The notes under the pieces: model-generated
Told to the model about the DNA's origin: nothing
Seen by the model: the letters and a program-made list of their open reading frames with translations, nothing else
The model's database searches: none
Program-made: the position numbers and the translations under genes
Part shown: positions 1-54,693 of the stretch, piece by piece
How the letters are laid out: the number at the start of each line of letters is the position of its first letter
Position numbering within the stretch: the stretch's first letter is position 1
DNA from: Cyclobacteriaceae bacterium
GTDB lineage: Bacteria; Bacteroidota; Bacteroidia; Cytophagales; Cyclobacteriaceae
Direction of reading: 5' to 3'
Assembly (NCBI GenBank): GCA_026129485.1
Contig: JAHCHY010000002.1
Location: forward strand, 186,001-250,000
Length of the DNA: 64,000 nt

Positions 1-21
1 ATTCACGATTAACGAATAACA
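1..21. repeat. Heptad-phased repeat tract (partial, at window edge)
   Basis: Three consecutive seven-base words fit ATTNACG or a close variant. The tract begins at or before the window edge and ends one base short of the arginase stop codon. It belongs to the period-7 tract class seen at eight other places in this window. Only part of it is visible, so the call leans on the other loci. Confidence 0.45.
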
Positions 22-22
22 C

Positions 23-985
23 CTACTCCGCCATCACCGGTCGGCCCATAATAGATTTTGCCGAGGCTTCGAGTATTTCAAATGCGCTTTCGGCCATGCG
101 GTTTTCGGTATCGAGTGTAGGGTTTACCTCCACAATTTCCCAGGCGCACACCCGGGCATCTTTACACAATTCGGCATTCAGTATCTTAGCCTCTTCTACG
201 GTTAATCCGTTTGGAACAGGTGTTCCCGTTCCGGTAGAAAACCGGCTGTCAATGCTATCCACATCAAACGATACATAAACCAGGTCGCAGTGATCCAGCA
301 TCTGCAAAGCTTTCTGCGCAATAGTTTCCGCGCCTGATTTTTTTACTTCTTCCACTTCAATAAAATTAATGTTGTGCTTATTGATGAGATAGTTCTCCGG
401 CTTTTCCAGATCGCGCACCGCTATGTACACGAGGTCTTCCGGTAATAGCTTGGCACCGGGCATACCCACGTTTTTGATCTGCTCCCAATAGTCAAGGGTT
501 TCACCGCGCGGATCGTTCACCTTACACTCCAGGTTATCGAAACCACAGGCCATAGCCAGCGGCATGCCGTGCATATTGCCCGATGGCGTGGTAAACGGTG
601 TATGAATATCGGCATGGGCATCAATCCAGATTACCCCCAACCGTTTTTTGGGATACGCTTTTTTTATCCCGGCAATAGTTCCGTAAGCGGTAGAATGGTC
701 GCCCGCCATAATCAACGGAAAGTAGTCGTCAAAAATCTGCTCGTACACTTCCAGGCATACGCGCTCCTCCATAATCAAAACCCCATCAATAAACTTGGCA
801 TAGGCGTGCTCGGCCCCGTCAAACAACAGCTCGTTTACGTTCTCTACTTCAATCGAATCGAACTTGCGGAAGAGGTCTGACTTCAAATCCAGGCTGGCTA
901 TTTTCATCGCTTCCACGCCCAGGCTGGCCCCCCGCGTACCGGCACCGATTTCGGACTTCACTTCGATGATCTTTATCTCTTTCAC
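23..985 (-). CDS. Arginase family ureohydrolase
   Basis: A 320-residue ureohydrolase, predicted cytoplasmic, that hydrolyses arginine to ornithine and urea. Visible manganese-site motifs are GDHS (95-98), DAHAD (122-126) and SFDVDSID (239-246). The SGNMHGMP block (135-142) is the arginine-binding loop typical of arginases rather than agmatinases, and GTGTPVPNG (252-260) and EVNP (286-289) complete the family signature. Length is normal. It is divergent from the arginine decarboxylase gene, so both arginine-consuming routes may be controlled from the shared 290-base spacer. Agmatinase activity cannot be excluded from sequence alone, and would make sense next to a decarboxylase, but the SGNxHG loop argues for arginase. 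Confidence 0.88.
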   Translation of the reverse strand: MKEIKIIEVKSEIGAGTRGASLGVEAMKIASLDLKSDLFRKFDSIEVENVNELLFDGAEHAYAKFIDGVLIMEERVCLEVYEQIFDDYFPLIMAGDHSTAYGTIAGIKKAYPKKRLGVIWIDAHADIHTPFTTPSGNMHGMPLAMACGFDNLECKVNDPRGETLDYWEQIKNVGMPGAKLLPEDLVYIAVRDLEKPENYLINKHNINFIEVEEVKKSGAETIAQKALQMLDHCDLVYVSFDVDSIDSRFSTGTGTPVPNGLTVEEAKILNAELCKDARVCAWEIVEVNPTLDTENRMAESAFEILEASAKSIMGRPVMAE

Positions 986-990
986 AGAAC

Positions 991-1018
991 TAAGAATTAT
1001 ATATTAAGAATTGGTTAA
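991..1018. repeat. Short heptad-phased tract upstream of arginase
   Basis: TAAGAAT occurs twice exactly 14 bases apart with an AT-only heptad between, and a looser fourth word follows. It lies just 5' of the arginase start on the minus strand. It is a weak member of the period-7 tract class. Confidence 0.35.
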
Positions 1019-1157
1019 TCGTAAAAAGCAGCCCAAAAAGCCGCAAATCCCCTGCCCTTCAGAAATCGGGCAAAGCATGAAGACCCGCAGGGACGGGGTT
1101 GAAAATCATGCGGGAAAGGTGATTAACCATACGGGTTTTGATCTGTTGCAAAGATGG

Positions 1158-1165
1158 CAAATTTA
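1158..1165 (-). promoter_or_regulatory. Candidate Bacteroidota -7 element for arginase
   Basis: Read on the minus strand this is TAAATTTG, a full match to the Bacteroidota -7 consensus TAnnTTTG. No clear TTG -33 box sits 19 bases upstream. It would give the arginase mRNA a leader of about 165 bases. Confidence 0.35.
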
Positions 1166-1190
1166 TCTCATTATTGCACCTCTTATTTTG

Positions 1191-1267
1191 GTTGATGGTT
1201 ACGCGTTGATTGTTGTTAGTTTAAAGAGCAGGCCAACAACCAGGAACAAACAACTAACAACTGCATG
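1191..1267. repeat. Heptad-phased inverted repeat tract between arginase and speA
   Basis: Eleven consecutive seven-base words. The first five begin with GTT, and the later ones follow CNAACAA or close variants, that is, the reverse-complement sense. GTTGTTAGTT (1212-1221) and AACTAACAAC (1252-1261) are perfect inverted copies. The tract ends five bases before the speA start codon, so the transcript 5' end could fold into a hairpin that covers the translation start. Confidence 0.7.
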
Positions 1268-1272
1268 AGTTA

Positions 1273-2673: not shown

Positions 2674-2727
2674 TTATTCTCAGCCCGAATCCAACCTTTG
2701 GCATTTGTTCTGTATCTTAACTGAAAG

Positions 2728-4738: not shown

Positions 4739-4774
4739 TTAAACTGGGTAGTCTGCCCGGTTAAACCAAAGGCT

Positions 4775-14866: not shown

Positions 14867-15784
14867 ATGAACACCCTCCGCATCATCTTTATGGGCACTC
14901 CTGAGTTTGCCGTGCCCAGCCTGGAAAAACTGGTTGAACACAACTTTAATGTAGTGGCGGTAATTACGGCACCCGATAAACCGCAGGGCCGGGGCCAAAA
15001 GCTGATGCCTTCTCCCGTAAAGGAAGCCGCGCTAAAGCATAACATACCCGTTCTGCAACCCGCCAACCTGAAAGCGGCTGCGTTTATTGAAGAGCTGAAA
15101 CGCTATAATGCCAACCTGCAAATTGTAGTGGCTTTCCGAATGCTGCCCGAAGTGGTTTGGGCCATGCCCGAATTGGGAACCTTTAACCTGCACGCATCAT
15201 TACTGCCGCAATACCGTGGCGCTGCTCCCATTAACTGGGCCATCATTAACGGTGAAAAGGAAACAGGTGTTACCACCTTCTTTTTAAAGCATGAGATAGA
15301 CACAGGCAGCATGATCTTTCAGGAAAAAGAAACCATCTACGAAAGCGACAATGCAGGCACACTTTATGAACGATTGATGCACAAGGGTTCGCAGCTTGTT
15401 CTGAAAACGGTAAAAGCCATTGAAGCCGGAAATTATCCAAGCGTACCGCAGGACATAAACGTTGAAATAAAACACGCTCCGAAAATTTTTAAGGAAACCT
15501 GTGAGATAAATTGGAATCATCCTGCAAAAAAGGTAGTGGACTTTGTGCGCGGGCTAAGCCCGTATCCCGGTGCATGGACAGTGCTGAACGGGAAGGCATA
15601 TAAAATCTTTAGTTGTAAGTCAACAGCCAACGGTCAACAGTCAACTGTGGACAGTGGACAGTGGGCAGTAAACGATGGGCTAAAAATTGAAGCAGCCGAT
15701 GGCTGGGTTTCAATACTTGAGCTTCAGCCGGAAGGGAAAAAGCGGATGACGGTGGAAGAGTTTTTAAGAGGTAATAAAGTTTGA
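14867..15784 (+). CDS. fmt: Methionyl-tRNA formyltransferase
   Basis: A 305-residue enzyme that formylates initiator Met-tRNA using 10-formyl-tetrahydrofolate. The catalytic domain shows FMGTPEFAVPSL at the N-terminus, the NLHASLLPQYRGAAPINWAI active-site stretch and the DTGSM block. The C-terminal OB-like tRNA-binding domain (about 205-305) ends with LQPEGKKRMTVEEFLRG. Its variable loop (about residues 252-268) is encoded by a stretch of consecutive seven-base words (15620-15668) that keeps the frame open. It is followed 64 bases on by folA, so two folate-linked genes sit together. Confidence 0.95.
   Translation: MNTLRIIFMGTPEFAVPSLEKLVEHNFNVVAVITAPDKPQGRGQKLMPSPVKEAALKHNIPVLQPANLKAAAFIEELKRYNANLQIVVAFRMLPEVVWAMPELGTFNLHASLLPQYRGAAPINWAIINGEKETGVTTFFLKHEIDTGSMIFQEKETIYESDNAGTLYERLMHKGSQLVLKTVKAIEAGNYPSVPQDINVEIKHAPKIFKETCEINWNHPAKKVVDFVRGLSPYPGAWTVLNGKAYKIFSCKSTANGQQSTVDSGQWAVNDGLKIEAADGWVSILELQPEGKKRMTVEEFLRGNKV
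15620..15668. repeat. Heptad-phased repeat inside fmt
   Basis: Seven consecutive seven-base words. The first four fit YCAACNG and the last three fit TGGRCAG. The two halves are related by inversion around the centre (TCAACAGT and ACTGTGGA). The array is 49 bases, lies in a loop of the tRNA-binding domain, and reads through without a stop. It resembles the intergenic period-7 tracts of this window. Confidence 0.7.
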
Positions 15785-22792: not shown

Positions 22793-22862
22793 AGTAGGCA
22801 ATGGGCAATTAACAGTAGGCAAATCAGGCGCTTGCATCTTGCCTACTGCCCCGTTGCCTACT
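22793..22862. repeat. Heptad-phased inverted repeat after the first CHAT gene
   Basis: AGTAGGC recurs exactly 21 bases apart on the left arm, with variant heptads between, and GCCTACT-type words reappear on the right arm. Pairing gives an imperfect long hairpin. It lies between the end of the CHAT gene and the VOC gene, both on the minus strand, so it may end the CHAT transcript. One word on the right arm is eight bases long. Confidence 0.7.
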
Positions 22863-22924: not shown

Positions 22925-25708
22925 TTACATCCCCATCATCACAAACGCTCCCCAATAGTATGGCTCTTTATACTTGGTCATTAATTGAAGCTGCGCCTGC
23001 TTAAAGGCCTTTTGTTTGTTGCCTGTTTTACTCCAGTTTGTATAAAAGCTGGTCATGAGCTGCTGCGTGGCGGCATCATCCACTTTCCATAAGCTCATGA
23101 TCAATGCATTTGCACCCGCCACTAAGAAGGCACGCTGCAAGCCATACACACCTTCACCAGCCCGCACATCGCCCAGGCCGGTTTCACATGCGCTCAGGAT
23201 AATCAGGTCGGTTCCTTCTAATGAAAGGTTCATGGCTTCGTAAGCGGTCAACACACCGTTATCATTACTTTGCAGATCAACCGAATTGTTGTTCTGGCTT
23301 TGCACCCCGGCCAGGATCAGCCCCGAACGGAGTAACGGATTGTTCTTTGCATTTTCGGCATCAATGCCCATAGCATCGCCACCTTGCAAATCCGTATCGG
23401 CAAGAAAATAACCATGCGTGGCAATGTGCATGAGGGCAGGTGCCGATACAGCTTTCAGCGCAGCTTCACTGGCTTCGCGCTGCTCACGCTTTTCAACTTT
23501 GTACCCGTTGGCGCCCAGGATTTTATTAATACCATCTATTTCAACTTTGGTTCCAGGCAGGGCGACTGCGTTGCCTCCGTAATCCGGAAAGCCCAGCACA
23601 AATGCATCTTTCCTGCTGCCTGTGCTCTTCTTATCCTTAATGGCAATCAGGTCTTTCGAGTTGCCGATCACAACCACATCATACCGGTTCAGCACATAAT
23701 CTCCGTCCGGCTTTTTCAAAGTGTTAATGTTAACCTGGTTATACACACCATCGGGTGAGAGGTAAATGGTTTTCTTTCCGGCTAACACAGGATCGATCCT
23801 TTCCCAATATTGCGCATAGGAATATGCATCGTTCATCTGCTGCTGTACGGCATTCCGGTAGTATTTGGCATAACGGGTTTCTATTTCATTGCCATTTTCA
23901 AGCAACACCATACGCGGCTGCGAAATACCTTTAGTTGCCACCAACGCGAGATAGCGCGACTGATCGGTAAAATCCTTATCGAAGGTACGCACCCGGATCA
24001 GCTCCAGCACGGCTTCGGTATCCTGCAATCGTGAAGCTACGGTTGTCCAGGTTACCTGTTCCGATTCATAACCTCTTGCAAAATCGGTGGAGCGTTGTGA
24101 GAGGGAGCGTTCCAGCTCGTTAGCTGTTTTTTCCAGCGCAGCCAAATCAATCTTCTGGTTTTTCAGCTCCTCTTTGGAAAGCGAATAGTAACGTGCCAGC
24201 GCTTCTTTCTGGCCAATCCACGAAACATAATCTTTTATCAATACTTCATTGCCACTGGCCAGTATGGCTTTCTTGATCTTATTTGTGGAGTTAAGTAATA
24301 ACGCTTTGGTAGCGATCTGGTAGTTAAATACATCAACCCATACTTCAGGCATTACAGCACCTGCCTCAATGGCGTAATTATAAAATCGTTGGAAACGCGG
24401 CTGCAGAATATCCCAGTACTTGGTTTTTTCAGTTTCGCTCATCGGGGCGAAATAGTGATTGATAAAATCCAGCGACCTGCTGCACGCGCCCTGTAAAAAC
24501 GGATAAGCCCGTGCGAGGTCGCCTTTCTTCCAGTATAAAATACCGGCAGCTTCCAGCGATTTCACATAGTCGGGATGATTTTCGCCAAGTGTGCGCTGCC
24601 GGATGCCCAATGCGCTGGTCAGTGCGGTTTCAGCTTCTGCCATGCGGCCCTGCAAACGATAAAATGTTCCGAGATCGGTTTGCACTTTTGCATAAGCCGG
24701 GTTCTCTGTTGTGAATTTCCGTTTATATACATCCGCAGCCTTCAACAGCAAAGGTTCTACCTGATCCATCTTGCCCATCTGCACATATAACAAGCTTAGC
24801 TGGTTAAGCAGGTTCGCATACTCAGGATTATTTTTCTGGCCCCGGTTTTCAAATACTTTGCGGATGGCATGAAACTCCGTTTCGGCCTGGGCAAGATTAC
24901 CGGATAGCTGGTACAGCAGCGCAAGGTTAGAGCTGAACTTGCGATTATCGAACGACTTCTTACCCTGTAACGTACGCTTGTTGGATGCTTCCAAAGCCAC
25001 AAGCGATTGCTTCATCAGCTCAATAGCCTCGGGGTAGCGTCCCATTACCTGGTACAGCATGGCTTTGTTGTTCAGCACAATGGCATGTTGTAAGCTATTA
25101 GCTCCCACTTTGGCAGCAAGGCTCGATAACGACTCGTTGAACATTTGCTCGGCCTCATTATAATGGCCCAGCAACTGGCGCAGCTTGGCCATGCTGTTAA
25201 GGTTGGCTGCATACGCCACACTTTTTTTGCCGAGGCGTTCACTTTCGGCAAGCGCATAGCTGATAAACTCTTCTGCATCCAGCGTACGTCCCTGTATCAG
25301 GTACATTACACCCATGTTTGAAATGCAACGGATATAGCTGATGTCGCGGGTCAGGTTGTAAGCTTCCATAAAGCCTTTTGCATTATTGAATGCAAGCTCT
25401 GCAACACGGTACCAGCGCATGTTATAATAATCCACTGCCCAGTTAACTGTATCGCTTGCTATTTCAGGCAACGTACGCTGGTTTTTGGGCTTCATGGAAT
25501 AAAAGCCTTTGGTCCATGCTTCCCCTTTTTGCTGCACATCAATAAAGCTGGAGTTATCATTTACCGACATGGCAAACTGAAAGTCGATGGAATCAAGCTG
25601 CGCTTTTTTCTCAGATCCGACATCAGCCAGGGCCTTGGTAAGCCAATCGTCCTGCGCATAGGCGATATTTACGCTGACGGTGAAGAGAATAAGGGTTAGG
25701 GTTTTCAT
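22925..25708 (-). CDS. Exported TPR-CHAT protein (caspase-like), copy 1
   Basis: A 927-residue protein with a signal peptide (cleavage near AYAQ, residue 19). A helical region with many TPR units (about 80-420) follows, then a linker, and a C-terminal CHAT domain (about 600-927). The caspase-like dyad is visible as H765 (HIATHGYF) and C841 (LSACETGLGDV), followed by the GVYGLQRAFLVAGA and SLWKVDD blocks. CHAT proteases known from other systems cleave protein partners after an activation signal; here the substrate is unknown. It is a paralogue of the gene upstream. Their C-termini are nearly identical (YYWGAFVMMGM), so they arose by duplication. The exported location is unlike CRISPR-linked CHAT proteases. 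Confidence 0.88.
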   Translation of the reverse strand: MKTLTLILFTVSVNIAYAQDDWLTKALADVGSEKKAQLDSIDFQFAMSVNDNSSFIDVQQKGEAWTKGFYSMKPKNQRTLPEIASDTVNWAVDYYNMRWYRVAELAFNNAKGFMEAYNLTRDISYIRCISNMGVMYLIQGRTLDAEEFISYALAESERLGKKSVAYAANLNSMAKLRQLLGHYNEAEQMFNESLSSLAAKVGANSLQHAIVLNNKAMLYQVMGRYPEAIELMKQSLVALEASNKRTLQGKKSFDNRKFSSNLALLYQLSGNLAQAETEFHAIRKVFENRGQKNNPEYANLLNQLSLLYVQMGKMDQVEPLLLKAADVYKRKFTTENPAYAKVQTDLGTFYRLQGRMAEAETALTSALGIRQRTLGENHPDYVKSLEAAGILYWKKGDLARAYPFLQGACSRSLDFINHYFAPMSETEKTKYWDILQPRFQRFYNYAIEAGAVMPEVWVDVFNYQIATKALLLNSTNKIKKAILASGNEVLIKDYVSWIGQKEALARYYSLSKEELKNQKIDLAALEKTANELERSLSQRSTDFARGYESEQVTWTTVASRLQDTEAVLELIRVRTFDKDFTDQSRYLALVATKGISQPRMVLLENGNEIETRYAKYYRNAVQQQMNDAYSYAQYWERIDPVLAGKKTIYLSPDGVYNQVNINTLKKPDGDYVLNRYDVVVIGNSKDLIAIKDKKSTGSRKDAFVLGFPDYGGNAVALPGTKVEIDGINKILGANGYKVEKREQREASEAALKAVSAPALMHIATHGYFLADTDLQGGDAMGIDAENAKNNPLLRSGLILAGVQSQNNNSVDLQSNDNGVLTAYEAMNLSLEGTDLIILSACETGLGDVRAGEGVYGLQRAFLVAGANALIMSLWKVDDAATQQLMTSFYTNWSKTGNKQKAFKQAQLQLMTKYKEPYYWGAFVMMGM

Positions 25709-25920: not shown

Positions 25921-28737
25921 TCACATCCCCATCATCACAAACGCACCCCAATAGTACGGGTCTTTATACTTTGTCATCAACTGAAGCTGCGCCTGCTTAA
26001 AGGCTTTCGCCTTGCTGCTGCCTTTGGAAAGGTTCGTGTAAAAATTAGTCATTAATGCCTGTGTGGCTGCGTCATCCACTTTCCACAAGCTCATGACCAT
26101 AGCTTTTGCACCGGCTACGATAAACGCACGTTGCAAACCATACACACCTTCGCCTGCACGCACATCTCCCAAGCCTGTTTCGCAGGCGCTTAGTACAATC
26201 AGGTCGGTACCTTCGAGGGGAAGGTTCATGGCCTCATACGCAGTAAGCACCCCGTTATCATTGCTCTCTAAGTTCGGAACAGCTTCACCTTTTAAGGTAA
26301 GCGATGCACCTGCCAGTAATAGTCCCGATCGCAACAACGGGTTTTGCCTGGCATTTTCATGATGTACCCCTGCTGCAGCCTGCTCTACATCGGCCTGAAA
26401 ATATCCGTGCGTAGCAATATGCACAATGGACTGGCCTTTTAAAGATTTAATGGCGGCTTCGGTGGCGGCCTTTTGCAGGTAAGGTGTAGTCTGATAGCCT
26501 CCTGCTTTCAGTATTCTTGAAATATTATCAATCTCTGTTTTAGTGCCGGGCAAAGCGCTTACCGCATCGCCACCATAATCCGGGAAGCCGAGCAGGAAAG
26601 CATTCTTCTTTGATGCAACTGCTTTTTGATTTTTAAGCGTTAATACATCTTTGGAATTGCCGATCATGATCAGGTCATACCGGTTAAGCAGGTAGTCGCC
26701 ATCCGGTTTTTTTAAGGTGTTCAGGCTAACCTGGTTATATACACCATCGGCCGAAATGTAAAGTATTTTCTTCCCGGCAACGGCAGGTTCTACACGGGCC
26801 CAGAACTGATCGTAGGAATACGAATCGGCTTGCTTGTTTTGAATAGCATTACGGTAAAATTTTGCATAACGGGTTTCCAACTGGTTGCCGTTGTCCAGCA
26901 CAACTAATTTGGGTGAAGCAGCGCCTTTGACAAGCACCAGGGCAGCATATTTTGAATCAGTTGTAAAATCTTTATCGTAAGCGCGAATGCGAATAAATTC
27001 TACTACAGCTTCCTGGTCGTTCAATGCGTTAGCTATCTGCGCAAAGCTTGTCTTATCGGCCGCATAGCCTTGCGAGAAGTCTGTTGATCGTTGTGAAAGC
27101 GAACGCTCCATATCGTTGGCTTCGCGCTCCAATGCAGTCAGGTCTATATTCTGGTTAGTAAGGTCTTCTTTGGAAAGCGAATACAATCGTGCAAGCGTTT
27201 CTTTTTTATCCAGCCAGGCTAAGTAGTCCTTGATAAGATCGTTGTTGCCGCTGGCCAGGATAGCCTTCTTGATTTTGTTGGTCGAGTTTAGCAGCAAACC
27301 TTTTGTAGCCATCTGGTAATCATACAGGGTTTGAAGCACGGCAGGGTTGGCAGCGCTGGCATCGAGGCAATAGTTGTAGAATCGCTGAAAGCGGGGCTGC
27401 AGCACATCCCAGTATTTTGTTTTCTCGGCCTCGCTCATCGGGGGAAAATACTGGTTGATAAAATCGATGGATTTATCCATCGCCACTTTGTAGCTGGCAT
27501 CGGCTTTTGGCAGGTCGCCCTTCTTCCAATACAGGATGGCCAAATCTTCCTGCGCCTTTACATAATCCGGGTGATTGGTATTAAGCGCAGTAGCATTGAT
27601 ATTCAAGGCCCTTGTCAAATTATCTTCCGCTTCTGCAAAGCGCTCCTGCATGCGATAGAAATTACCGAGGTCGTTAAGCACTTTAGCGTAGTTGGGATTT
27701 TCTTTTCCAAAACGGCTCAGGTAAATCTGGGCTGCCTCTTTCAGATAACCTTCCACCTTATCCAGCTTGTTCATCTGGATGTATAGCAACCCGAGGTTGT
27801 TCAGCACACCGGCATAAAATGTTTTATCACCGAGCAGCTTCAGCGATTTTTCTAACTTCAGATAAACAGCCTCGGCTTCAGCAAGCTTTCCCTGCTCCTG
27901 GTACAGCAACGCAAGATTGGATTGAAACCCAACCTGGTTTCGTTTACTCTTGCTGTTTATTTTTTCAAGAATACTGATGGCGGTATTAAGCCCGGCTACA
28001 GCCTGATCCAACCGCCCAACTTCATAGAAGAATATCGCCTGGTTGTTCAGCACCACGGCATACTCCTGGCTTTCTTTCCCCCACTGCTTTTCTACTGCCT
28101 GCAAAGCCTCACGAAAATAATTTTCCGCTTCATTGAATCGTGCTGTTTCTTGGTACAATACAGCAAGGTTGTTTAACGATGATGCCCCTGCTTTGCTATC
28201 GCGCCCCAATGATTGTTCGCGTAAAGCCAGTCCTTCTGTTGCAAAATATTCAGCAGCGTTAAACCGGCCCATCGTGGCATATAACAAACCCAGATCGGCA
28301 TGTACTTTACTATAGTTTATATTCTCCGTTAAACCGGTAGTTTCGTATGCGAGCTTCGCTTCGAGGAAAGAAACTTCGGCCAGCCTGTACCTGCGGGCCT
28401 GGTAAAAATTCTCGGCCTGGTCTAAAATGGAGCGGCATCTTTCGGCAGCAGTAATATCGCTTTCCTTTTTCAGGTATTTATTGGAGGCCATATATGCCGA
28501 ACGTGCCGCTATCTCATCCGCATCCAGCACATTCATCATACCCGAGTTGTCAATAACGGTAATGGCATAATTAAAATCGGTAGAGTCTAATCTATCCCGT
28601 GCAGCGTCCGCCTTTTCGGCCGCTTTGCCTTTTGCCAGGTCTTTACTTTTTTGAACAACCTTGTTCTTCAGGTTCTGAATCTGACTGTATCCCGCAAGCG
28701 GGGCCATCAACATCATAACTAAAATTATTTGCCTCAT
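25921..28737 (-). CDS. Exported TPR-CHAT protein (caspase-like), copy 2
   Basis: A 938-residue paralogue of the following CHAT protein. The signal peptide ends near GYSQ (residue 19), then an Ala/Lys/Asp-rich helix, TPR units (about 100-430), a linker, and the CHAT domain (about 610-938) with H777 (HIATHGYF) and C852 (LSACETG). Both catalytic positions are intact, so both copies are probably active proteases. It starts 15 bases after the stop of the isomerase-like gene and so is probably co-transcribed with it. A 212-base gap separates it from copy 1. Confidence 0.88.
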   Translation of the reverse strand: MRQIILVMMLMAPLAGYSQIQNLKNKVVQKSKDLAKGKAAEKADAARDRLDSTDFNYAITVIDNSGMMNVLDADEIAARSAYMASNKYLKKESDITAAERCRSILDQAENFYQARRYRLAEVSFLEAKLAYETTGLTENINYSKVHADLGLLYATMGRFNAAEYFATEGLALREQSLGRDSKAGASSLNNLAVLYQETARFNEAENYFREALQAVEKQWGKESQEYAVVLNNQAIFFYEVGRLDQAVAGLNTAISILEKINSKSKRNQVGFQSNLALLYQEQGKLAEAEAVYLKLEKSLKLLGDKTFYAGVLNNLGLLYIQMNKLDKVEGYLKEAAQIYLSRFGKENPNYAKVLNDLGNFYRMQERFAEAEDNLTRALNINATALNTNHPDYVKAQEDLAILYWKKGDLPKADASYKVAMDKSIDFINQYFPPMSEAEKTKYWDVLQPRFQRFYNYCLDASAANPAVLQTLYDYQMATKGLLLNSTNKIKKAILASGNNDLIKDYLAWLDKKETLARLYSLSKEDLTNQNIDLTALEREANDMERSLSQRSTDFSQGYAADKTSFAQIANALNDQEAVVEFIRIRAYDKDFTTDSKYAALVLVKGAASPKLVVLDNGNQLETRYAKFYRNAIQNKQADSYSYDQFWARVEPAVAGKKILYISADGVYNQVSLNTLKKPDGDYLLNRYDLIMIGNSKDVLTLKNQKAVASKKNAFLLGFPDYGGDAVSALPGTKTEIDNISRILKAGGYQTTPYLQKAATEAAIKSLKGQSIVHIATHGYFQADVEQAAAGVHHENARQNPLLRSGLLLAGASLTLKGEAVPNLESNDNGVLTAYEAMNLPLEGTDLIVLSACETGLGDVRAGEGVYGLQRAFIVAGAKAMVMSLWKVDDAATQALMTNFYTNLSKGSSKAKAFKQAQLQLMTKYKDPYYWGAFVMMGM

Positions 28738-29689: not shown

Positions 29690-29759
29690 GGCTACTGGTT
29701 GCTGGTTTCTTGTTGCTGGTTTTCGCTGCCAGGAACCAGCAGCGAGTAGCCAGCAACTA
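29690..29759. repeat. Heptad-phased inverted repeat between divergent genes
   Basis: Ten consecutive seven-base words. The left words follow GGTTNCT or close forms, and the right words contain CCA with GNAGCCA-like forms. GGCTACT (29690-29696) and AGTAGCC (29745-29751) are perfect inverted copies. It lies 5 bases from the isomerase start codon and between two diverging genes, so it is not a terminator. Confidence 0.75.
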
Positions 29760-29822: not shown

Positions 29823-31025
29823 TTGCTGCCGATGAAAATCTATCGAAACCTTGCGGCTGCCGTTGTGGATGCCCTGGGCGAAATTTTTCTTAACAAGAAA
29901 TATGCCGACAAGGTGATTGAAAAGGTTTTGAAGAGCAATCCCAAATGGGGTGCGCGCGACAGGCGGTTTATTGCCGAAACCACGTACGATATTGTGCGTT
30001 GGCACCGGCTGTTTAAAACCGTGGCTCCTGCTGCCGATGATGATTTCTGGAAGCTGTTAGGCGTGTGGTGCACCTGGAAACAGGCCGAGCTACCGGCATG
30101 GACTGAATTTCAAAACCTTAACCGAAAGAAAATATTAGCCGCTTTTGACGAGGTAAAATCAGACCGGAAAACCCGGGAATCCATACCTGATTGGTTAGAT
30201 GAATTGGGTGCTGCTGAATTAGGCCCTTTATGGGATACCGAGCTGGCGGCCTTAAACACCGAAGCGCCCGTTGTATTACGCGCCAACACGTTAAAAATTT
30301 CGCGCGAAGCGTTACAGCAACAGTTAGCTGATGATTCGGTTGAATCAAAAGCTCCACGCGATTTCCCTGATGCACTGATATTAAAGCAACGACAAAATAT
30401 TTTCGGCCGGCCGCAATTCAAAGATGGCCTGTTTGAAGTGCAGGATGCCGGATCGCAACTGATCGCACCTTTTCTACAGGCTGAGCCCGGCCATCGTGTG
30501 ATAGACGCTTGCGCGGGAGGCGGTGGCAAAACACTGCACCTTGCCGCGCTCATGAAAAACAAAGGGCGTATTATAGCGATGGACACCGAAGGCTGGAAAT
30601 TAGAAGAATTGAAAAAGCGTGCACGCAGGGCCGGTGCGGCCAATATTGAAACGCGCATAATCGAATCGTCCAAAACCATTAAGCGGTTAGAAAGTTCGGC
30701 AGACCGGTTGCTATTAGACGTACCGTGCTCAGGCCTGGGTGTGCTAAAACGAAACCCCGATGCCAAATGGAAGCTGTCGCTGGATTTTGTTAACCGGGTA
30801 AAAGAATTACAGCAACAGGTATTAACAGATTACAGCGCTATGGTAAAACCGGGCGGACTGCTGGTGTATTCAACGTGCAGCTTGCTGCCATCTGAAAATG
30901 AAAAGCAGGTTGAGAGATTTCTGAACGCACAAAACAATTCGTTTGAGCTGCTGGATCAAAAAAGCATCCGGCCTTCAGCAGGGTTTGACGGGTTTTATAT
31001 GGCATTGCTAAAGAGAAAAGCTTAA
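29823..31025 (+). CDS. RsmB/NOP2-type RNA m5C methyltransferase
   Basis: A 400-residue SAM-dependent RNA cytosine-C5 methyltransferase. The N-terminal NusB-like helical part (about 1-140) has NPKWGARDRRFIAETTYD. The Rossmann core shows DACAGGGGKTLHLAA (SAM binding), then DVPCSGLGVLKRNPD with the second catalytic cysteine, and YSTCSLLPSENE with the attacking cysteine. It probably modifies 16S rRNA like RsmB, but other rRNA or tRNA targets are possible. ATG 29832 (MKIYRN) is a near alternative to the start at 29823. A period-7 repeat overlaps the stop codon. Confidence 0.88.
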   Translation: MLPMKIYRNLAAAVVDALGEIFLNKKYADKVIEKVLKSNPKWGARDRRFIAETTYDIVRWHRLFKTVAPAADDDFWKLLGVWCTWKQAELPAWTEFQNLNRKKILAAFDEVKSDRKTRESIPDWLDELGAAELGPLWDTELAALNTEAPVVLRANTLKISREALQQQLADDSVESKAPRDFPDALILKQRQNIFGRPQFKDGLFEVQDAGSQLIAPFLQAEPGHRVIDACAGGGGKTLHLAALMKNKGRIIAMDTEGWKLEELKKRARRAGAANIETRIIESSKTIKRLESSADRLLLDVPCSGLGVLKRNPDAKWKLSLDFVNRVKELQQQVLTDYSAMVKPGGLLVYSTCSLLPSENEKQVERFLNAQNNSFELLDQKSIRPSAGFDGFYMALLKRKA

Positions 31026-31072
31026 AGCAAAAAGTTGTTTGGCTTTAAGCTTTCTGCTTTATAGCTTTAAGC
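31020..31072. repeat. Heptad-phased repeat overlapping the methyltransferase stop
   Basis: GCTTTAA, GCTTTCT and GCTTTAT follow one another directly, and a further GCTTTAA comes after one extra base. The reverse sense (GCTTAAAGC) opens the tract and includes the stop codon. The arms pair into a hairpin, so it may also end the transcript. Confidence 0.7.
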
Positions 31073-31087: not shown

Positions 31088-32026
31088 ATGATTCGCTTTT
31101 TCATATCCATCGTACTGCTATTCTGGTTCAACGACCTTCATCCCCAGGATTTCAAAACCTACAATCAGTCCATACCCGGCACTTCGGTAACCTTTAGAAT
31201 GGCAGCTATTCCGGCAGGGAAGTTCAGGATCGGAAGCCCGGCTACAGAACGCGGACGGCAGGATGATGAAGGCCCTCAGAAAGAGATACAACTATCTCCG
31301 TTCTGGATGGGTGTTAAGGAAGTAACCTTTGCCGAGTGGGATTTATACTTTAAAGACAACTCGCTTCTGCAAAGCAAAACCATTGACGGGGTAACCCGCG
31401 CTACGCCTCAATATATTGACTTAACGTGGGGTATGGGCCGCGATGCGAAACATCCTGCCAACAGCATGAGCCACACCGCAGCCGTGATGTACTGCAAGTG
31501 GCTGTATAGCAAAACCGGGATCTTTTTCAGGCTGCCCACCGAAGCCGAGTGGGAATATGCCTGCCGGGCCGGGAGCGAAACCGCTTACCCGTTTGGTAAC
31601 GATGCGGCCGGCTTGCGCGAACATAGTTACTTTGAAGACAACAGCAATGGTAAATTTCATCTTGTAGGTCAGCTTAAGCCCAATGCCTGGGGCTTGTACG
31701 ATATGCTGGGCAACTTAAGCGAGTGGACAATCGATCAATACGATGCTGCTTACTATTCAAAAATAGCCGACAAAAATCCCTCCACCACACCCGCATCCAA
31801 GCATCCCAAAACCGTGAAGGGAGGCTCGTACTTAGACGATGCCAGCGAGCTGCGTTGCGCCAACCGGATTGCCTCGCATACCAACTGGAACATACGCGAT
31901 CCGCAAATCCCCAAAAGCAAGTGGTGGCTAACCGATGGCATGTTTGTAGGCTTTCGCGTGGTGCGACCACTCGTACAACCTTCCAAAGAAGAGATTGAGA
32001 AGTTTTATAACTTGTACTTGAAATAG
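31088..32026 (+). CDS. Exported FGE-sulfatase (SUMF1)-like protein, non-canonical
   Basis: A 312-residue protein with a signal peptide (about 1-19) and a formylglycine-generating-enzyme-like C-type lectin fold: MAAIPAGKFRIGSP, VTFAEWDLYF, RLPTEAEWEYACRAG, LGNLSEWTID and a GFRVVRP end. True FGEs end in GFRC and use a cysteine pair for copper. Here the terminal cysteine is V (GFRVV) and the pattern is that of the larger SUMF1-like family with binding or structural roles. It is probably periplasmic or surface-bound. No sulfatase gene is nearby. It may share a transcript with the Gfo/Idh gene across a repeat tract. Confidence 0.85.
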   Translation: MIRFFISIVLLFWFNDLHPQDFKTYNQSIPGTSVTFRMAAIPAGKFRIGSPATERGRQDDEGPQKEIQLSPFWMGVKEVTFAEWDLYFKDNSLLQSKTIDGVTRATPQYIDLTWGMGRDAKHPANSMSHTAAVMYCKWLYSKTGIFFRLPTEAEWEYACRAGSETAYPFGNDAAGLREHSYFEDNSNGKFHLVGQLKPNAWGLYDMLGNLSEWTIDQYDAAYYSKIADKNPSTTPASKHPKTVKGGSYLDDASELRCANRIASHTNWNIRDPQIPKSKWWLTDGMFVGFRVVRPLVQPSKEEIEKFYNLYLK

Positions 32027-32087
32027 TTTCTGGTTACGCGCTGCTGGTTCCTGGCAGTGTACAACAAGAAACCAGTAACCAGCAACC
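32025..32087. repeat. Heptad-phased inverted repeat abutting the Gfo/Idh start
   Basis: Nine consecutive seven-base words. The first four follow NGTTNCT or near forms, and the last three are exact AGNAACC units in a row (32067-32087). The two arms are inverted relatives. The tract begins at the last two bases of the upstream stop and ends five bases before the next ATG. Confidence 0.8.
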
Positions 32088-32091: not shown

Positions 32092-33420
32092 ATGAAACCT
32101 ACCCACACCCGCAGAGAGTTTGTAAAGAAAACCTCGCTGATAGCCGGAACGCTGGCTACCCTGCCCTTCGTATCGAAATCGCAGCATGTAAACACCTCCG
32201 TAGATGATGCCATCAAGGTTGCCCTGGTCGGCTGTGGCGATCGCGGTACGGGGGCCGCCATGCAGGCTTTGCTCACCAAACAAAATGTAAAGCTGGTGGC
32301 TATGGCCGATGCATTTCGCGATCGTATTGATCGATGCTTTAATGCATTAACCGATTCCGAAAATGAAGATGGAAATGTTTCTGACCGCGTGGCCGTGCCC
32401 GAAGAAAACAAGTTTGTCGGTTTTGATGCATACAAAAAAGCTATTCCATTAGCTGATGTGGTGATCTTAACCACACCACCCGGCTTCCGCCCTATTCATT
32501 TTGAAGAAGCTGTGCGCCTCGGCAAGCATGCGTTTATGGAGAAACCAGTAGCTACCGATCCGGCCGGAATTAAACGGATATTGGATGCAGCGATAATTGC
32601 CCGCCAGAAAAAATTGAATGTAGTCGTGGGCTTGCAACGACACTATCAAAATTCTTACCGGGAGTTATATAAAAAATTTAAAGACGGAGCCATCGGTGAT
32701 ATTGTATCTGCGCAAGCGTGGTGGAACAGCGAAGGCGTGTGGGTAAACCCGCGCAAGTACAACCAAACCGAAATGGAATACCAGATGCGCAACTGGTATT
32801 ACTTCAACTGGTTGTGTGGCGATCATATTGTAGAGCAACACATTCACAACATTGATGTGATCAACTGGTTTAAAGGAAGCTACCCGGTAAAAGCGCAAGG
32901 CATGGGTGGGCGCGAAGTGCGTAAAGGCAAGGACTTTGGCGAGATCTTCGATCATCATTATGTAGAGTTTACCTATGCCGATGGCACTATTTTAAACAGC
33001 CAGTGCCGCCACATTAAAGACACCATGAGCAAAGTGGATGAGCTTATTATAGGCACCAAAGGCAACATTTATTTTGGCGCTGCCAACATAACCGATCGCA
33101 AAGGCAAAGTGCTGTATCAATATGACCGTACCAAGGAAAACAATCCGTATCAAACCGAACACGATGAGTTGTTTGCTGCCATCGCCAAAAAAGAATACAA
33201 GTTTGATGATACCGGGAACGGGGCCCGCAGCACGATGACAGCCATACTGGGCCGGATGGCTACCTACTCCGGCAAAATAGTTGAGTTTGAAAAAGCGCTT
33301 AACTCAGGGTTAAGCTTAATGCCGGCACAATTTGACTTTAATGCATCGCCTCCTGTAGTTCCCAATGCTGATGGTCTGTACCCGGTAGCTGTGCCGGGTG
33401 TTACGAACTATAATTCATGA
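32092..33420 (+). CDS. Tat-exported Gfo/Idh/MocA family oxidoreductase
   Basis: A 442-residue NAD(P)-dependent oxidoreductase with a Tat signal (THTRREFVKKTSLIAG). The Rossmann nucleotide site is VALVGCGDRGTG, followed by the EKPVATDPAG block that carries the conserved lysine. The C-terminal alpha/beta domain has WYYFNWLCGDHIVEQHIHNIDVINW, where GDHIVEQHIHN is the usual substrate-side histidine stretch. Such proteins act on sugars or inositols, often with bound cofactor in the periplasm. Together with the Tat-exported isomerase-like gene nearby it suggests oxidised-sugar handling outside the cytoplasm. A clear terminator follows. Confidence 0.9.
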   Translation: MKPTHTRREFVKKTSLIAGTLATLPFVSKSQHVNTSVDDAIKVALVGCGDRGTGAAMQALLTKQNVKLVAMADAFRDRIDRCFNALTDSENEDGNVSDRVAVPEENKFVGFDAYKKAIPLADVVILTTPPGFRPIHFEEAVRLGKHAFMEKPVATDPAGIKRILDAAIIARQKKLNVVVGLQRHYQNSYRELYKKFKDGAIGDIVSAQAWWNSEGVWVNPRKYNQTEMEYQMRNWYYFNWLCGDHIVEQHIHNIDVINWFKGSYPVKAQGMGGREVRKGKDFGEIFDHHYVEFTYADGTILNSQCRHIKDTMSKVDELIIGTKGNIYFGAANITDRKGKVLYQYDRTKENNPYQTEHDELFAAIAKKEYKFDDTGNGARSTMTAILGRMATYSGKIVEFEKALNSGLSLMPAQFDFNASPPVVPNADGLYPVAVPGVTNYNS

Positions 33421-37933: not shown

Positions 37934-38029
37934 ATGAAAGAATTTTTTGAACACGTAAAAAGACTTTGGTTTATCATTTTAATGGGAGCGCTCCTTTTGG
38001 CGCTTTTTATTATCTTGAAACTCTCTTAA
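37934..38029 (+). CDS. Putative 31-residue single-span membrane peptide
   Basis: An ATG frame of 31 codons with a basic, amphipathic start (MKEFFEHVKRLW) and one strongly hydrophobic segment of about 15 residues. It ends with LKLS. The shape is that of a small membrane peptide. No homologue can be claimed. It is upstream of the inverted-repeat element and of the antiporter gene. Confidence 0.4.
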   Translation: MKEFFEHVKRLWFIILMGALLLALFIILKLS

Positions 38030-38037: not shown

Positions 38038-38104
38038 AAGAGGCTGTCTCAAAAGTGTATCCACTGTCAGGCTGACAATGAACTGATTTTTGATACAGCC
38101 TCTT
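38038..38104. mobile_element. MITE-like or terminator-like inverted-repeat element
   Basis: Nineteen-base arms (38038-38056 and 38086-38104) match as inverted copies in 17 of 19 positions. They begin AAGAGGCTGT, a phrase like the ends of several transposon families with GGCTGTCTCAAAA termini. A nested TGTCAG/CTGACA hairpin lies in the centre. At 67 bases it has no coding capacity. It could be a miniature transposon remnant, or a strong intergenic hairpin that ends plus-strand transcription. Confidence 0.55.
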
Positions 38105-38132: not shown

Positions 38133-39605
38133 GTGACGTTAACAGCCGAGAACATATTACTATTAGGGTCAATCCTGCTTTTTGCCAGCATCATTGCCAG
38201 TAAAACCTCATTCAAGTTCGGTATCCCCACCCTTATTCTCTTTTTAATTGTGGGTATGCTGGCCGGGTCTGAGGGGCCCGGAAAGATTTATTTCGATGAC
38301 CCCAAGATTGCTCAGTTTATGGGTGTGGTTGCGCTTACCTTTATCCTGTTTTCCGGTGGACTTGACACCAAGCTGGAAAGCATTAAGCCGGTTCTCAAAA
38401 ATGGCCTTGTGCTATCAACTATAGGGGTGCTGGTTACAGCTGTAACGGTTGGAGTTTTCACGGCCTATGTACTTAATTTTTCAATTATTGAAGGTATGCT
38501 GCTGGGGGCTATCGTATCCTCCACCGATGCTGCAGCCGTATTTTCAATTTTGCGAACAAGAAATGTCGGATTAAAAGGCAATCTCCGCCCGCTGCTTGAG
38601 TTTGAAAGCGGCAGCAACGACCCGATGGCCTACTTCCTCACCATCAGCTTTATCGAGCTGGTCATACATCCTGAAACATCCATTGCGCTCATGATTCCCA
38701 AATTCGTGAAAGGAATGGTGCTTGGCGCGATATGCGGATACGGGGGTGGCCGCCTGATGGTGTATGTGATTAACCGGATAAACCTGGATGTGGCAGGACT
38801 GTACCCCGTGTTAACTATTTCGTTGATGTTCTTTATTTTTTCGTTTACCGATGCCATCGGGGGTAACGGGTTCCTGGCTATTTACGGAGCCGGTATAATC
38901 CTTGGTAATGCCAACATCATTCATAAGAAAAGCCTGATCAAATTTTTTGACGGGATTGCCTGGCTCATGCAGATAGTAATGTTCCTCGCGCTGGGAATGC
39001 TGGTTTATCCTTCCAAAATAACCCCGATTATTGGCGAGGGTATCCTGATCTCCCTGTTCCTGATTGTAGTGGCAAGGCCATTGGCTGTGTTCCTGATGCT
39101 TATCCGGTCAAAGGATCTGAATTTCCGAAAAAAGCTCTTTATCTCCTGGGTAGGATTACGGGGCGCTGCTCCTATTGTATTCGCAACATACCCGTTGATT
39201 GCTGGTGTACACTATGCAGATGTAATTTTCAATCTTGTATTTTTTATATCGGTAACATCAGTTGTACTGCAGGGCTCCACGCTTTCGCTGATGGCCAAAT
39301 GGCTGCACGTAGGCGTACCCGAAAAAGTTAAACGAAAATTCCCGCTTGACCTTGAATTGAAAGACGGATCGAAATCGGAGCTGATTGAGCTGGATATTCC
39401 GGAAGCTTCTGTAGCCGTGGGCAAACAAATTGTTCAGCTGAAGCTTCCCAAATCATCGCTCATTGTGCTAATACACCGGCAGGATAAATACGTTACACCC
39501 AGCGGTGAAACGGAAGTTCAGGCTAATGATCACCTGCTTATTCTGGCCGATAACAAAGAGGCAAGAGCTAAAATATATGATAGCTTCGGCCTGCAGCTCG
39601 AATGA
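38133..39605 (+). CDS. CPA1-type K+/H+ (or Na+/H+) antiporter with RCK_C domain
   Basis: A 490-residue transporter of the CvrA/NhaP2 kind. About 13 membrane helices span residues 5-395, with GILVTAVTVG, SSTDAAAVFSILR and ESGSNDPMAYFL carrying the ion-binding acidic residues (the ND pair). The C-terminal soluble part (about 400-490) is a TrkA_C/RCK_C regulatory domain with VAVGKQIVQLKLP and LLILADNKE. It exchanges monovalent cations against protons at the inner membrane. Translation begins with GTG at 38133; the ATG 14 bases upstream runs into a stop after five codons. It overlaps crcB by four bases. Confidence 0.9.
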   Translation: MTLTAENILLLGSILLFASIIASKTSFKFGIPTLILFLIVGMLAGSEGPGKIYFDDPKIAQFMGVVALTFILFSGGLDTKLESIKPVLKNGLVLSTIGVLVTAVTVGVFTAYVLNFSIIEGMLLGAIVSSTDAAAVFSILRTRNVGLKGNLRPLLEFESGSNDPMAYFLTISFIELVIHPETSIALMIPKFVKGMVLGAICGYGGGRLMVYVINRINLDVAGLYPVLTISLMFFIFSFTDAIGGNGFLAIYGAGIILGNANIIHKKSLIKFFDGIAWLMQIVMFLALGMLVYPSKITPIIGEGILISLFLIVVARPLAVFLMLIRSKDLNFRKKLFISWVGLRGAAPIVFATYPLIAGVHYADVIFNLVFFISVTSVVLQGSTLSLMAKWLHVGVPEKVKRKFPLDLELKDGSKSELIELDIPEASVAVGKQIVQLKLPKSSLIVLIHRQDKYVTPSGETEVQANDHLLILADNKEARAKIYDSFGLQLE

Positions 39606-48875: not shown

Positions 48876-48885
48876 AACTGGCGGA

Positions 48886-50585: not shown

Positions 50586-50605
50586 TGAAAATTTTTTAAA
50601 CCCGA

Positions 50606-50613
50606 CAAAGATA
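50606..50613 (-). promoter_or_regulatory. -7 element for the glycosyltransferase-sigma factor unit
   Basis: On the minus strand this is TATCTTTG, a full match to TAnnTTTG, the same word as the rsmG element. It lies 21 bases before the TTG at 50585. No good -33 box is seen. Confidence 0.5.
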
Positions 50614-50719
50614 AAGGCTTCACCCAAATGAGCGGTATGATTAACCATTACGTTACCGGAAAAAGCGATAAGCCTGCTGCATTTGCACGCCCAAAACCCT
50701 AACCCTAACTTGCAGCCCA

Positions 50720-51850: not shown

Positions 51851-51859
51851 ATTTTGGGC

Positions 51860-52960: not shown

Positions 52961-53856
52961 TTGCCACAACACGAGATTACTTTCATCTTCACTTCCTGGT
53001 TTTCTTATGGGGATTTACTGCCGTGCTGGGTAAGCTCATCACGCTTCCCTCGGTAGAAATGGTTTTTTACCGCACCCTGCTGGCGGCAGCCGGTATGGGC
53101 GTGGTTATGCTGTTGCTTAAAAAGCCATTCGGTATTCCAACACCCCTGTTGGTAAAAGTTTTTGCCACCAGCATCATTGTAGCCATTCACTGGATTGCCT
53201 TTTTTGTTTCCGGAAAAATTTCCAATCCGTCCACCAGCCTCGTTGGCTTTGCGACCTGCTCGTTCTGGGCTGCCATATTGGAGCCGCTTCTTAAACGAAA
53301 AAAAATTGCCTGGCTTGAAATCGCACTTGGTATTGTGGTGCTGATCGGCCTGGGGATTATTCTCGCATTCGACTTCAAGCATCCGTTGGGATTGCTGTTG
53401 GGCATCATCTCCGGTTTAACGGCCGCGTGGTTCAGCATCATCAACTCCAAGCTGGTGCACCGGGTAAATGCTTATGCCATTACTTTCTACGAGATGCTGG
53501 GCGCTTGCGTACTTATCCTGCTGTTTATGCCACTTTATGTCCGACTCCCGGTGGTAGATCGGCTGAATCTTATTCCTACCCCAAGTGATTGGTTTTACAT
53601 TGCCATCATGGCATGGGCGTGCTCGGTGTATGCTTTCTCGGCATCCATCAACCTTTCAAAAAGGATTTCTGTTTTTATGATCCAGCTTGCACTGAACCTG
53701 GAACCACTATACGGCATTATACTGGCATTGCTGGTATTTGGTCAGCAGGAAGTCATGAGCTGGCAATTTTACCTGGGTACCGCAATCGTGCTCAGCGCTG
53801 TAATTATCTATCCCATCTTAAAAAACAAAGCTCAGGCAAACGTACCTGCCCAGTAA
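52957..53856 (+). CDS. EamA/DMT superfamily transporter
   Basis: A 299-residue protein with ten predicted membrane helices in two EamA repeats. The first repeat shows FLWGFTAVLGKLITLPS, the second AYAITFYEMLGACVLILLF, and LNLEPLYGIILALLVFGQ is a usual late motif. Such proteins export or import amino acids, nucleobases or other metabolites; the substrate is unknown. It starts with GTG inside the LptF/G stop and ends 25 bases into the convergent ispE. Confidence 0.88.
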   Translation: MIATTRDYFHLHFLVFLWGFTAVLGKLITLPSVEMVFYRTLLAAAGMGVVMLLLKKPFGIPTPLLVKVFATSIIVAIHWIAFFVSGKISNPSTSLVGFATCSFWAAILEPLLKRKKIAWLEIALGIVVLIGLGIILAFDFKHPLGLLLGIISGLTAAWFSIINSKLVHRVNAYAITFYEMLGACVLILLFMPLYVRLPVVDRLNLIPTPSDWFYIAIMAWACSVYAFSASINLSKRISVFMIQLALNLEPLYGIILALLVFGQQEVMSWQFYLGTAIVLSAVIIYPILKNKAQANVPAQ

Positions 53857-54641
53857 TCGACATCCGCAAACTGAGTATTCAAATCTACCGGTGCATTAAA
53901 AATGCCAAACACCGAAGCGCCCGATCCGCTCATACAGGCATAAGCGGCACCGTTTTCATAAAGCCGCGCTTTCAATCCGGCAATCACCGGGAAGCTTCTG
54001 AATACAGGTACTTCAAAATCATTAACCAATTTTTCGCGCCAGCTTTCCAAAGGCATTTGCAAAACTGATTTCAGACTTTGTGCAGGTTTTGAAGGAACTA
54101 TCCCGGCATACGCTTCGGCAGTGGATACATGGACACCGGGTTTTACCAATACGATATATTTTCCTTTTAAACTTACCGGGGCCTGCGAAAGCATTTCACC
54201 GCGCCCCCCGGCCAGCATGGGCTGATCCTGCAGAAAGAAAGTACAATCGCTTCCCAATTGTACGGCATAACTTTTTAATTGCTCCTGCGAAAGATTCAAT
54301 TGAAAAAGTGAATTGAGCAGGCGCAACGTAAACGCAGCATCGGCAGAACCTCCTCCCACGCCTGCACCCATCGGTATAATTTTGTGCAGGTAAATTTTTA
54401 CCGGGTGCAGGTTAAAGTCATTTGCCAGCAGGCGGTAGGCTTTTACGCACAGGTTCTGATCGGCTTCGCCCGGAACAGGTAAGCCCGAGGTGGTGAAGGC
54501 AAATGCATCGGCTTTGATCACCTCCAGAATATCGGTGCGGGGTACAGGGTAAAAACAGGTCTCTATAGTATGATACCCATCGCTTCGCTTCTCCACCACA
54601 TGAAGACCGAGATTGATTTTGCAATGGGGAAAAGAAACCAT
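53832..54641 (-). CDS. ispE: 4-diphosphocytidyl-2-C-methyl-D-erythritol kinase
   Basis: A 269-residue GHMP kinase of the non-mevalonate isoprenoid pathway. The N-terminal block has FPHCKINLGLHVVEKRSDGYH, the ATP loop is IPMGAGVGGGSADAAFTLRLL, and the catalytic aspartate lies near ADAA. The C-terminal half has GGRGEMLSQAP and YACMSGSGASVFGIF. Length is normal. It overlaps the convergent DMT gene by 25 bases. The gap to fabI holds a period-7 repeat. Confidence 0.93.
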   Translation of the reverse strand: MVSFPHCKINLGLHVVEKRSDGYHTIETCFYPVPRTDILEVIKADAFAFTTSGLPVPGEADQNLCVKAYRLLANDFNLHPVKIYLHKIIPMGAGVGGGSADAAFTLRLLNSLFQLNLSQEQLKSYAVQLGSDCTFFLQDQPMLAGGRGEMLSQAPVSLKGKYIVLVKPGVHVSTAEAYAGIVPSKPAQSLKSVLQMPLESWREKLVNDFEVPVFRSFPVIAGLKARLYENGAAYACMSGSGASVFGIFNAPVDLNTQFADVDYWAGTFA

Positions 54642-54647
54642 TTAAGA

Positions 54648-54682
54648 GTTGCTGGTTGCCGGCTGCTGGTTGTCAGACCAAC
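54648..54682. repeat. Heptad-phased repeat between fabI and ispE
   Basis: Five consecutive seven-base words. The first four fit GYTGCYG or GTTGTCA, and the fifth, GACCAAC, with the next bases reverses the sense. It is short but phased exactly, and it lies between two co-directional minus-strand genes. Confidence 0.65.
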
Positions 54683-54693
54683 AGCTCATTAAA

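Follow-up and report, generated by a model that had tools for sequence, protein, structure and literature searches.

Degenerate, often palindromic heptanucleotide tracts in the intergenic spacers of a Cyclobacteriaceae bacterium and its relatives

Why should the DNA between the genes of a Cyclobacteriaceae bacterium read as a succession of seven-base words? The question is raised by a stretch of 64,000 nt (the window; G000:C12:186001-250000) from a draft genome of 4.08 Mb in 40 contigs, 98% complete, in which nine places had been singled out as heptad tracts, mostly with the same words returning as reverse complements. We propose that the tracts are degenerate, often palindromic, lineage-specific heptanucleotide repeats, akin to the short tandemly repeated repetitive (STRR) sequences of cyanobacteria and to the P6b stem of a Nostoc intron, which would change by slippage in place, spread by copying between loci and be constrained at the level of DNA. 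We give this reading a probability of about one half. Here G000 denotes the window's genome, other G-numbers denote other genomes and L-numbers individual loci or stretches (G144 is L022); synteny with six relatives covers most of the window.

When lags 4 to 12 were compared at each place against dinucleotide shuffles, lag 7 was the best lag, with a best-of-any-lag p of at most 0.01, at eight of the nine places: 1-21 at the window edge, 1191-1267 (locus A), 15620-15668 (B), 22793-22862 (C), 29690-29759 (D), 31020-31072 (E), 32025-32087 (F) and 54648-54682 (G). The ninth, 991-1018, is attributable to chance (p 0.19 at lag 7 and 0.75 for the best of any lag) and was ruled out as a heptad tract. 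Seven of the confirmed places uphold the notion of an intergenic class, whereas locus B is coding and lies inside fmt. At the genome scale, 41 stretches including the window (864 kb, with 382 spacers totalling 61.5 kb) were searched for strong tracts, defined by a lag score of at least 10, with shuffled spacers as the control. The spacers contained 15 such tracts at lag 7 against 0.7 after shuffling, 14 at lag 14 (shuffled 0.3), 5 at lag 21 (shuffled 0.1) and none at lag 28, and the remaining lags between 3 and 30, none of them divisible by 7, gave 0-5 tracts each (5 at lag 15, 3 each at lags 8 and 12). The original prediction had named an excess of lag 7 over other lags and over shuffled sequence as its genome-wide check, and that excess was found. 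A chance origin of the period is rejected by the shuffles and by the comparison with other lags, and period 7 is a property of the genome beyond the single window. In the coding open reading frames (ORFs) of the same sample (797 kb), lag 7 was not special: three tracts scored at least 11, one in fmt, one in L006 and one N-terminal in L011 (where the start may be misassigned), against 4, 5, 7 and 6 tracts at lags 12, 15, 18 and 21, all above lag 7.

The period also extends to related genomes. Among 192 distinct orthologue spacers that flank six genes in genomes of the genus, most of these spacers being picked since this genome has a tract there, 35 contained a tract of base period 7, while base periods 4, 5, 6, 8, 9, 10 and 11 accounted for 0, 4, 0, 1, 1, 2 and 2 tracts; beside four gene sides not picked for a tract, base-period-7 tracts were present in 3 of 75 spacers. 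On contigs around a single gene in relatives (40 of 41 loci were used, L057 being omitted), the 24 Cytophagales-type loci contained 15 lag-7 tracts and the 13 Chitinophagaceae loci 11; lags not divisible by 7 yielded 0-5 tracts on the same contigs. In 150 kb of Escherichia coli K-12, a score of at least 8 was reached by 0, 1 and 2 tracts at lags 7, 14 and 21 (shuffled 0.8, 0.2 and 0.4).

It had been held that the tracts share the period and not the sequence. This does not stand: an exact canonical word match at another locus was found for 17 of the 28 tract spacers in the 864-kb sample (two of the 28 being near-copies 2.7 kb apart in L249), whereas letter-shuffled words produced a match in 1.3 spacers on average and in at most 7 over 200 trials. 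The genome holds several word families, one of which, GTTRCT, occurs at many separate places. Its pattern GGTTRCTGGTTRCTGG, with at most one mismatch, matches G000 22 times, at 16 places (some matches overlap within one tract), and has 23, 31, 31, 12 and 9 matches in G009, G144, G008, G013 and G023, compared with just 0-2 in G031, G019, G030, G016, G086 and G116; the reversed-GGTTRCTGGTTRCTGG control gave 0-1 matches in every genome. Because the pattern is abundant in six genomes and has 0-2 matches in the others, the GTTRCT family is a property of a six-species clade. Independent neutral slippage at each locus, with nothing held in common, would agree with the heptameric excess in many bacteria for which polymerase slippage has been hypothesised (Mrazek 2007, as cited in PMC4679880 and PMC4692102). 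The sharing of words, together with the conservation of locus F among five relatives described below, makes this explanation very improbable.

The GTTRCT tracts also have a fixed polarity. The 112 sequences examined contained 95 GTTRCT clusters: 21 were two-armed, 44 consisted of the first arm alone and 30 of the second arm alone. All 21 two-armed clusters had the order GTTRCT then AGYAAC, the arms facing inward with GTT first; such clade counts take in orthologues of one locus and are not all independent. Hairpin sets for the polarity, arm and G-U tests were drawn from spacers of 35 to 260 nt, spacers with N being excluded, and a hairpin score floor of 26 was applied to the polarity sets and 24 to the G-U test. 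The 5' arm of clade tract hairpins was G-rich in 32 of 37 cases, C-rich in 3 and tied in 2, and the non-tract control was balanced at 34 versus 30 with 4 ties (n=68). Tract spacers fold better than others (median z -3.6, n=15, versus -0.5 for 150 of 208 non-tract spacers), and this, with the 21 two-armed clusters, supports the proposal that the inverted arms can fold. Within the GTTRCT family, however, complementarity to an arm's own partner scored 31.5 and to opposite arms elsewhere 30.5 (16 loci). Since the arms fit those of other loci equally well, the fold follows from common words. Local inverted duplication of arms was also considered and rejected: 30 pooled hairpins scored 33.25 within loci, 22.25 across loci and 16.5 for shuffled halves, a difference that is gone within the GTTRCT family.

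It could be argued that the tracts are cis-acting RNA hairpins (in a 5' untranslated region, between cistrons or as terminators) retained by selection on pairing in the transcript. The stronger folding of tract spacers, the conservation of locus F among five relatives and one paired change at locus D, from GCAGG/CCTGT to ACTGG/CCAGC between G013 and G023, would be in keeping with such elements. If the RNA fold were under selection, G-U should exceed A-C on the sense strand, and this excess is lacking in the tracts: 51 same-strand tract spacers supplied 33 hairpins, with 33 G-U against 45 A-C, compared with 120 against 91 in non-tract hairpins (n=67). Neither this test nor the comparison of arms within and across loci supports an RNA-selected hairpin, the entire locus D spacer folds no better than shuffled sequence in G013 and in G023 (z 0.0 and 0.4), and some tracts lie inside coding DNA. 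Position is no more favorable. A start-codon element, apparent in the window, was not upheld by the 51 same-strand tract spacers, 27 of which have the tract nearer the start and 24 nearer the stop. Convergent genes flank 9 of 64 tract spacers, and tracts are underrepresented between divergent genes (4/64 versus 104/506; three-class test p 0.023); tract scores of 6.5-8 were excluded from the G-U and gene-orientation tests. RNA hairpins are thus an unlikely explanation, given these points, and an expression role for the tracts, which their positions next to start or stop codons had been taken to suggest, is not supported, as there is no start/stop bias and tracts also occur in convergent spacers and coding loops. 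Expression effects, if any, may be incidental and locus-dependent.

How the tracts evolve was followed at orthologous spacers, above all at locus F, which lies between an FGE-sulfatase-like gene (31088-32026) and a GFO/IDH/MocA-like gene (32092-33420). Its tract, judged by eye, is present in G009, G144, G013, G023 and G008 and missing in G031. Between G013 and G023, which are 91.3% identical, the two arms of locus F each differ by 7 nt, and an alignment of six sequences contains gaps of 7 and 14 columns. Among the five relatives, the locus F spacer is 0.87-0.91 identical for the nine pairs other than G013/G023, and the same nine pairs have an identity of 0.41-0.53 at fourfold sites of the genes on either side; for the close pair, identity at locus F is also 0.90. 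At locus D, G013 and G023 differ by about nine substitutions, all in the tract and none in the remaining spacer (by eye).

One orthologous spacer can hold different word families in different species (words were assigned to families by eye). Downstream of an aldehyde-dehydrogenase gene (Pfam), where the next gene is of the proline-racemase type in all nine species, the words are GTTRCT in G000, G008, G013, G023 and G026, GCAGTAA in G009, G144 and G031, and GATACTG in G019. The biotin-carrier/biotin-carboxylase spacer contains GTTRCT words in four genomes (G000, G013, G008 and G144), and the AATTTTG words found there in G009 and G031 are weaker (scores 7.5 and 8). At locus G, whose SDR neighbour is constant across the 23 species, tracts with a score of 9 carry GTTRCT words in three genomes (the window's, G009 and G144), and those of G033 (GTTGTTA), G030 (AAATTTC), G005 (GTTAATC) and G034 consist of different words. 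A tendency of such sites to draw tracts of other families is suggestive, but not established, with tracts in 7 of 51 GTTRCT-free spacers at five loci where G000 carries a GTTRCT tract versus 3 of 75 spacers at the four unselected sides (p 0.09). These data bear on the possibility that the tracts are arrays of binding sites for a putative heptad-reading, sequence-specific DNA-binding protein. Words common to separate loci, and a locus F that five relatives keep more alike than their fourfold sites, would be expected of such arrays, but the words are degenerate, several families coexist in one genome, families differ at orthologous spacers and heptads also occur in a coding loop. On balance we find binding arrays rather improbable.

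Mobilisation by a transposase offers another route by which palindromes could be dispersed. Repetitive extragenic palindromic (REP) elements and bacterial interspersed mosaic elements (BIMEs), which occur with RAYT transposases, are dispersed intergenic palindromes, and elements of this kind or of the miniature inverted-repeat transposable element type would likewise be dispersed between genes, palindromic, clade-specific and, as in the GTTRCT family, of fixed polarity. Unlike REP/BIME elements, however, the tracts vary in heptad number and their loops are dissimilar between loci by eye. In G000 (98% complete), Y1_Tnp (PF01797) gave no match, other transposase families not having been searched; Y1_Tnp was found in G031, G019, G030 and G016, genomes with 0-2 GTTRCT matches, and no lag-7 tract scoring 10 was present at 28 Y1 loci of nine relatives. 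Y1 transposases therefore do not track the tracts, RAYT mobilisation is unsupported, and no filled/empty site was found. We consider mobilised palindromes quite unlikely.

Under the repeat reading proposed above, heptads would be gained and lost by slippage in a 7-nt register during replication or repair, and word families would spread by copying between loci, through ectopic exchange or gene conversion. A constraint on the DNA, rather than on an RNA fold, may preserve the words at some loci, and elsewhere, as in fmt and at locus D in G013, the words would decay. A bolder possibility is a putative trans-acting activity, specific to the word family of a lineage, that writes or rewrites the tracts. 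It is suggested because the same words occur at many loci, the GTTRCT arms face inward, families differ at orthologous sites and arms fit those of other loci. Such an activity might extend broken ends by templated addition, or it might be a factor that reads heptads and coevolves with the words; the geometry of the inward-facing arms can be likened to a head-to-head junction of two telomere-type repeats. We hold such a writer to be improbable.

Several observations weigh against degenerate repeats that change by slippage and copying. The gain and loss of whole heptads that had been anticipated at orthologous spacers was seen at locus F in G013/G023, and only in this one close pair at this one locus. 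Six other places in G013/G023 were candidates: the tracts are identical at two, one differs by a few substitutions, and the remaining three comprise an identical coding tract with a remodelled spacer, a chance coding match and a non-orthologous pair. A blast indel census of G013/G023 found no 7-nt indel in spacers and split locus F into other gaps; the census was marred by 1-nt gaps, which numbered 106 in spacers and 116 in coding sequence and are probably read errors. No clean filled/empty tract pair was found among close genomes. The window's own copy of locus F is 0.66-0.75 identical to the five relatives, and its D copy is 0.70-0.78 identical to relatives, including 0.70 to the tractless G031, against an aligner baseline of 0.63-0.79 from locus G spacers without a common tract. 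As the window's F copy falls inside this baseline and the five relatives lie above it, conservation of locus F is established among the five relatives only. Hairpins without an exact GTTRCT string showed a trend in polarity (13 versus 5, 2 ties, p 0.10, n=20), and a general polarity rule is therefore not established; this set, from which tract scores of 6.5-9 were excluded, was meant for other genomes and drew few members from the clade, although some clade loci remained in it (L340-L345, L361 and L365). Finally, random stretches were poor in tracts: ten from the genus held 2 lag-7 tracts (shuffled 0) with no elevated lag-7 fraction (z 0.7), ten from the order held 1 (shuffled 0.8), and twenty from family to phylum held 3 (shuffled 0).

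Heptad repeats have been described in other bacteria, Bacteroidota included. TAACTGA repeats are reported for Beggiatoaceae, Cyanobacteria and five Bacteroidetes, three of the latter with other heptamers alongside (MacGregor 2015, PMC4679880), so that the supposed lack of a described Bacteroidota counterpart was mistaken. Like the tracts studied here, these are heptad arrays in spacers; they differ in consisting of one exact word that lies near start codons in BOGUAY (PMC4679880), whereas our tracts show no start bias, and exact TAACTGA dimers numbered 0 in 864 kb of the window's genome. Rehm 2015 (PMC4692102) reports GGGAATC / GGGGA(C/T)T repeats from Xanthomonas and Nostoc; these are dispersed, mainly non-coding heptads with inverted copies that are scarce between divergent genes, keep the same gene neighbours in relatives while varying in length, and had no regulatory role found for them. 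All of these traits but the last are likenesses; unlike our tracts, they consist of G-quadruplex words. In our 864 kb, GGGAATC and GGGGATT dimers numbered 0, and a G3 quadruplex motif was present in 1 of 382 spacers. Cyanobacterial STRRs, as the original prediction rightly perceived, resemble the tracts in having a seven-base unit and several words per genome. In STRRs the unit, for example CAACAGT, is repeated exactly and in tandem. For Calothrix, PMC4692102 mentions three tandem heptanucleotides. The seven-base unit is overrepresented in spacers here, as expected of STRRs or long simple sequence repeats (15 versus 0.7; 35/192), yet the copies are seldom exact: an exact period-7 run of at least 14 letters was found in 17 of 382 spacers, the longest being 18, and six words tried in 864 kb yielded one exact dimer (GTTGCTG).

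The closest match in behaviour is, by analogy, the P6b stem of the Nostoc tRNA-Leu(UAA) intron, whose heptads (Class I TDNGATT, Class II NNTGAGT) are described in PMC3488679 and PMC4476775 as degenerate in both arms; indels of 7 nt affect the two sides of the stem, and one word class can give way to another. The tracts resemble P6b in their heptad hairpin arms, in 7-nt indels on both sides and in a word class that differs by lineage at one site. Degenerate heptads in both arms characterise many tracts, not all, and indels on both sides of the stem are confined to locus F in G013/G023. P6b is a single locus in a cyanobacterial group I intron RNA, whereas here many Cytophagales spacers are involved with no sign of RNA selection; the window contains no Rfam family at gathering score and no tRNA or tmRNA. 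A literature search found no account from Cytophagales of families of such words or of palindromic tracts built from heptads, subscription papers lying mostly outside its coverage.

The tracts of the window differ individually, and only locus B is assigned a strand. The window-edge tract (1-21) reads ATTCACG ATTAACG AATAACA, with 11 of 14 lag-7 matches (best-of-any-lag p 0.002), and its complement, CGTTAATC, sits just upstream in the genome (letters from L164). Locus A, with GTTGTTA/GTTGATG heptads and a reverse-complement arm, ends 5 nt upstream of a decarboxylase-like gene (1273-2673); its RNA fold is weak in the window copy (z only -0.8), its word class AACAACT also occurs at L259, and the tract is recognisable by eye in G009, G144, G023 and G008. 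Locus B (15618-15669, plus strand; lag-7 score 22.5, also in the Tandem Repeats Finder rows) consists of AGTYRAC heptads coding for about residues 252-268 of methionyl-tRNA formyltransferase, an example of seven-base words furnishing repeats to a protein loop; clear AGTYRAC heptads are present in 3 of 30 fmt sequences (window, L141 and L142), and several others look decayed by eye. Heptad tracts also overrun the start codon at L294 about 9744 and L011 12831-12862, and encode the N-terminal residues MPSNQQSTTKYDVYG and MPTASNQQPVTNQPATRYD (read by eye or from the longest ORF).

Locus C combines AGTAGGC heptads with their reverse complements; its spacer folds at z -3.9, its best lag-7 score of only 6.0 places it outside the 28 scored tracts, and by eye it resembles the AATAGGC word class (3 loci). 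Loci D and F are both two-armed GTTRCT tracts. Locus D folds at z -5.5 and, by eye, has orthologous tracts in G009, G144 and G008, decayed tracts in G013 and G023 and none in G031. A palindrome, CCCGATAGCTATCGGG, lies within the heptad tracts of G144 at loci D and F, with a variant, CCCGATAGCCATCGGG, at locus F of L026; the 864-kb sample of the window's genome contains no match to its core. Locus E (GCTTTAA heptads, also in the Tandem Repeats Finder rows) folds at z -0.8, and its word family is found in G031 as well by eye. Locus G consists of GTTGCTG heptads, the same spacer holding other word families in other species.

Other features of the window may be mentioned in their own right. About 200 nt at 986-1190, between an arginase-family gene (minus strand) and the decarboxylase-like gene (plus strand), appear conserved, with a spacer identity of 0.79-0.89 among five genomes against 0.34-0.59 at fourfold sites of the flanking genes, and have no Rfam match at gathering score; a leader RNA or regulatory region is possible there. 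In the long spacer before the gene at 38133-39605, a 31-residue ORF, MKEFFEHVKRLWFIILMGALLLALFIILKLS (37934-38029, plus strand), is near-identical in G009, G144, G031 and G013 and frame-shifted in G023, and looks like an unannotated small membrane protein. An inverted repeat, AAGAGGCTGTCTCAAAAGT ... ACAGCCTCTT, at 38038-38104 has similar copies in a G031 spacer and in the heptad tract beside the G009 aldehyde-dehydrogenase gene. The neighbouring genes at 22925-25708 (927 codons) and 25921-28737 (938 codons) match each other's orthologues at 54-55% identity and are probably tandem paralogues.

A writing activity, if true, would amount to a type of repeat system new among bacteria. The findings raise the questions of whether words spread by copying and of what keeps a tract near 90% identity in some lineages where fourfold sites are saturated. 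A clade with common words, families that differ between related species and orthologous sites makes the spread of such words testable by comparative genomics.

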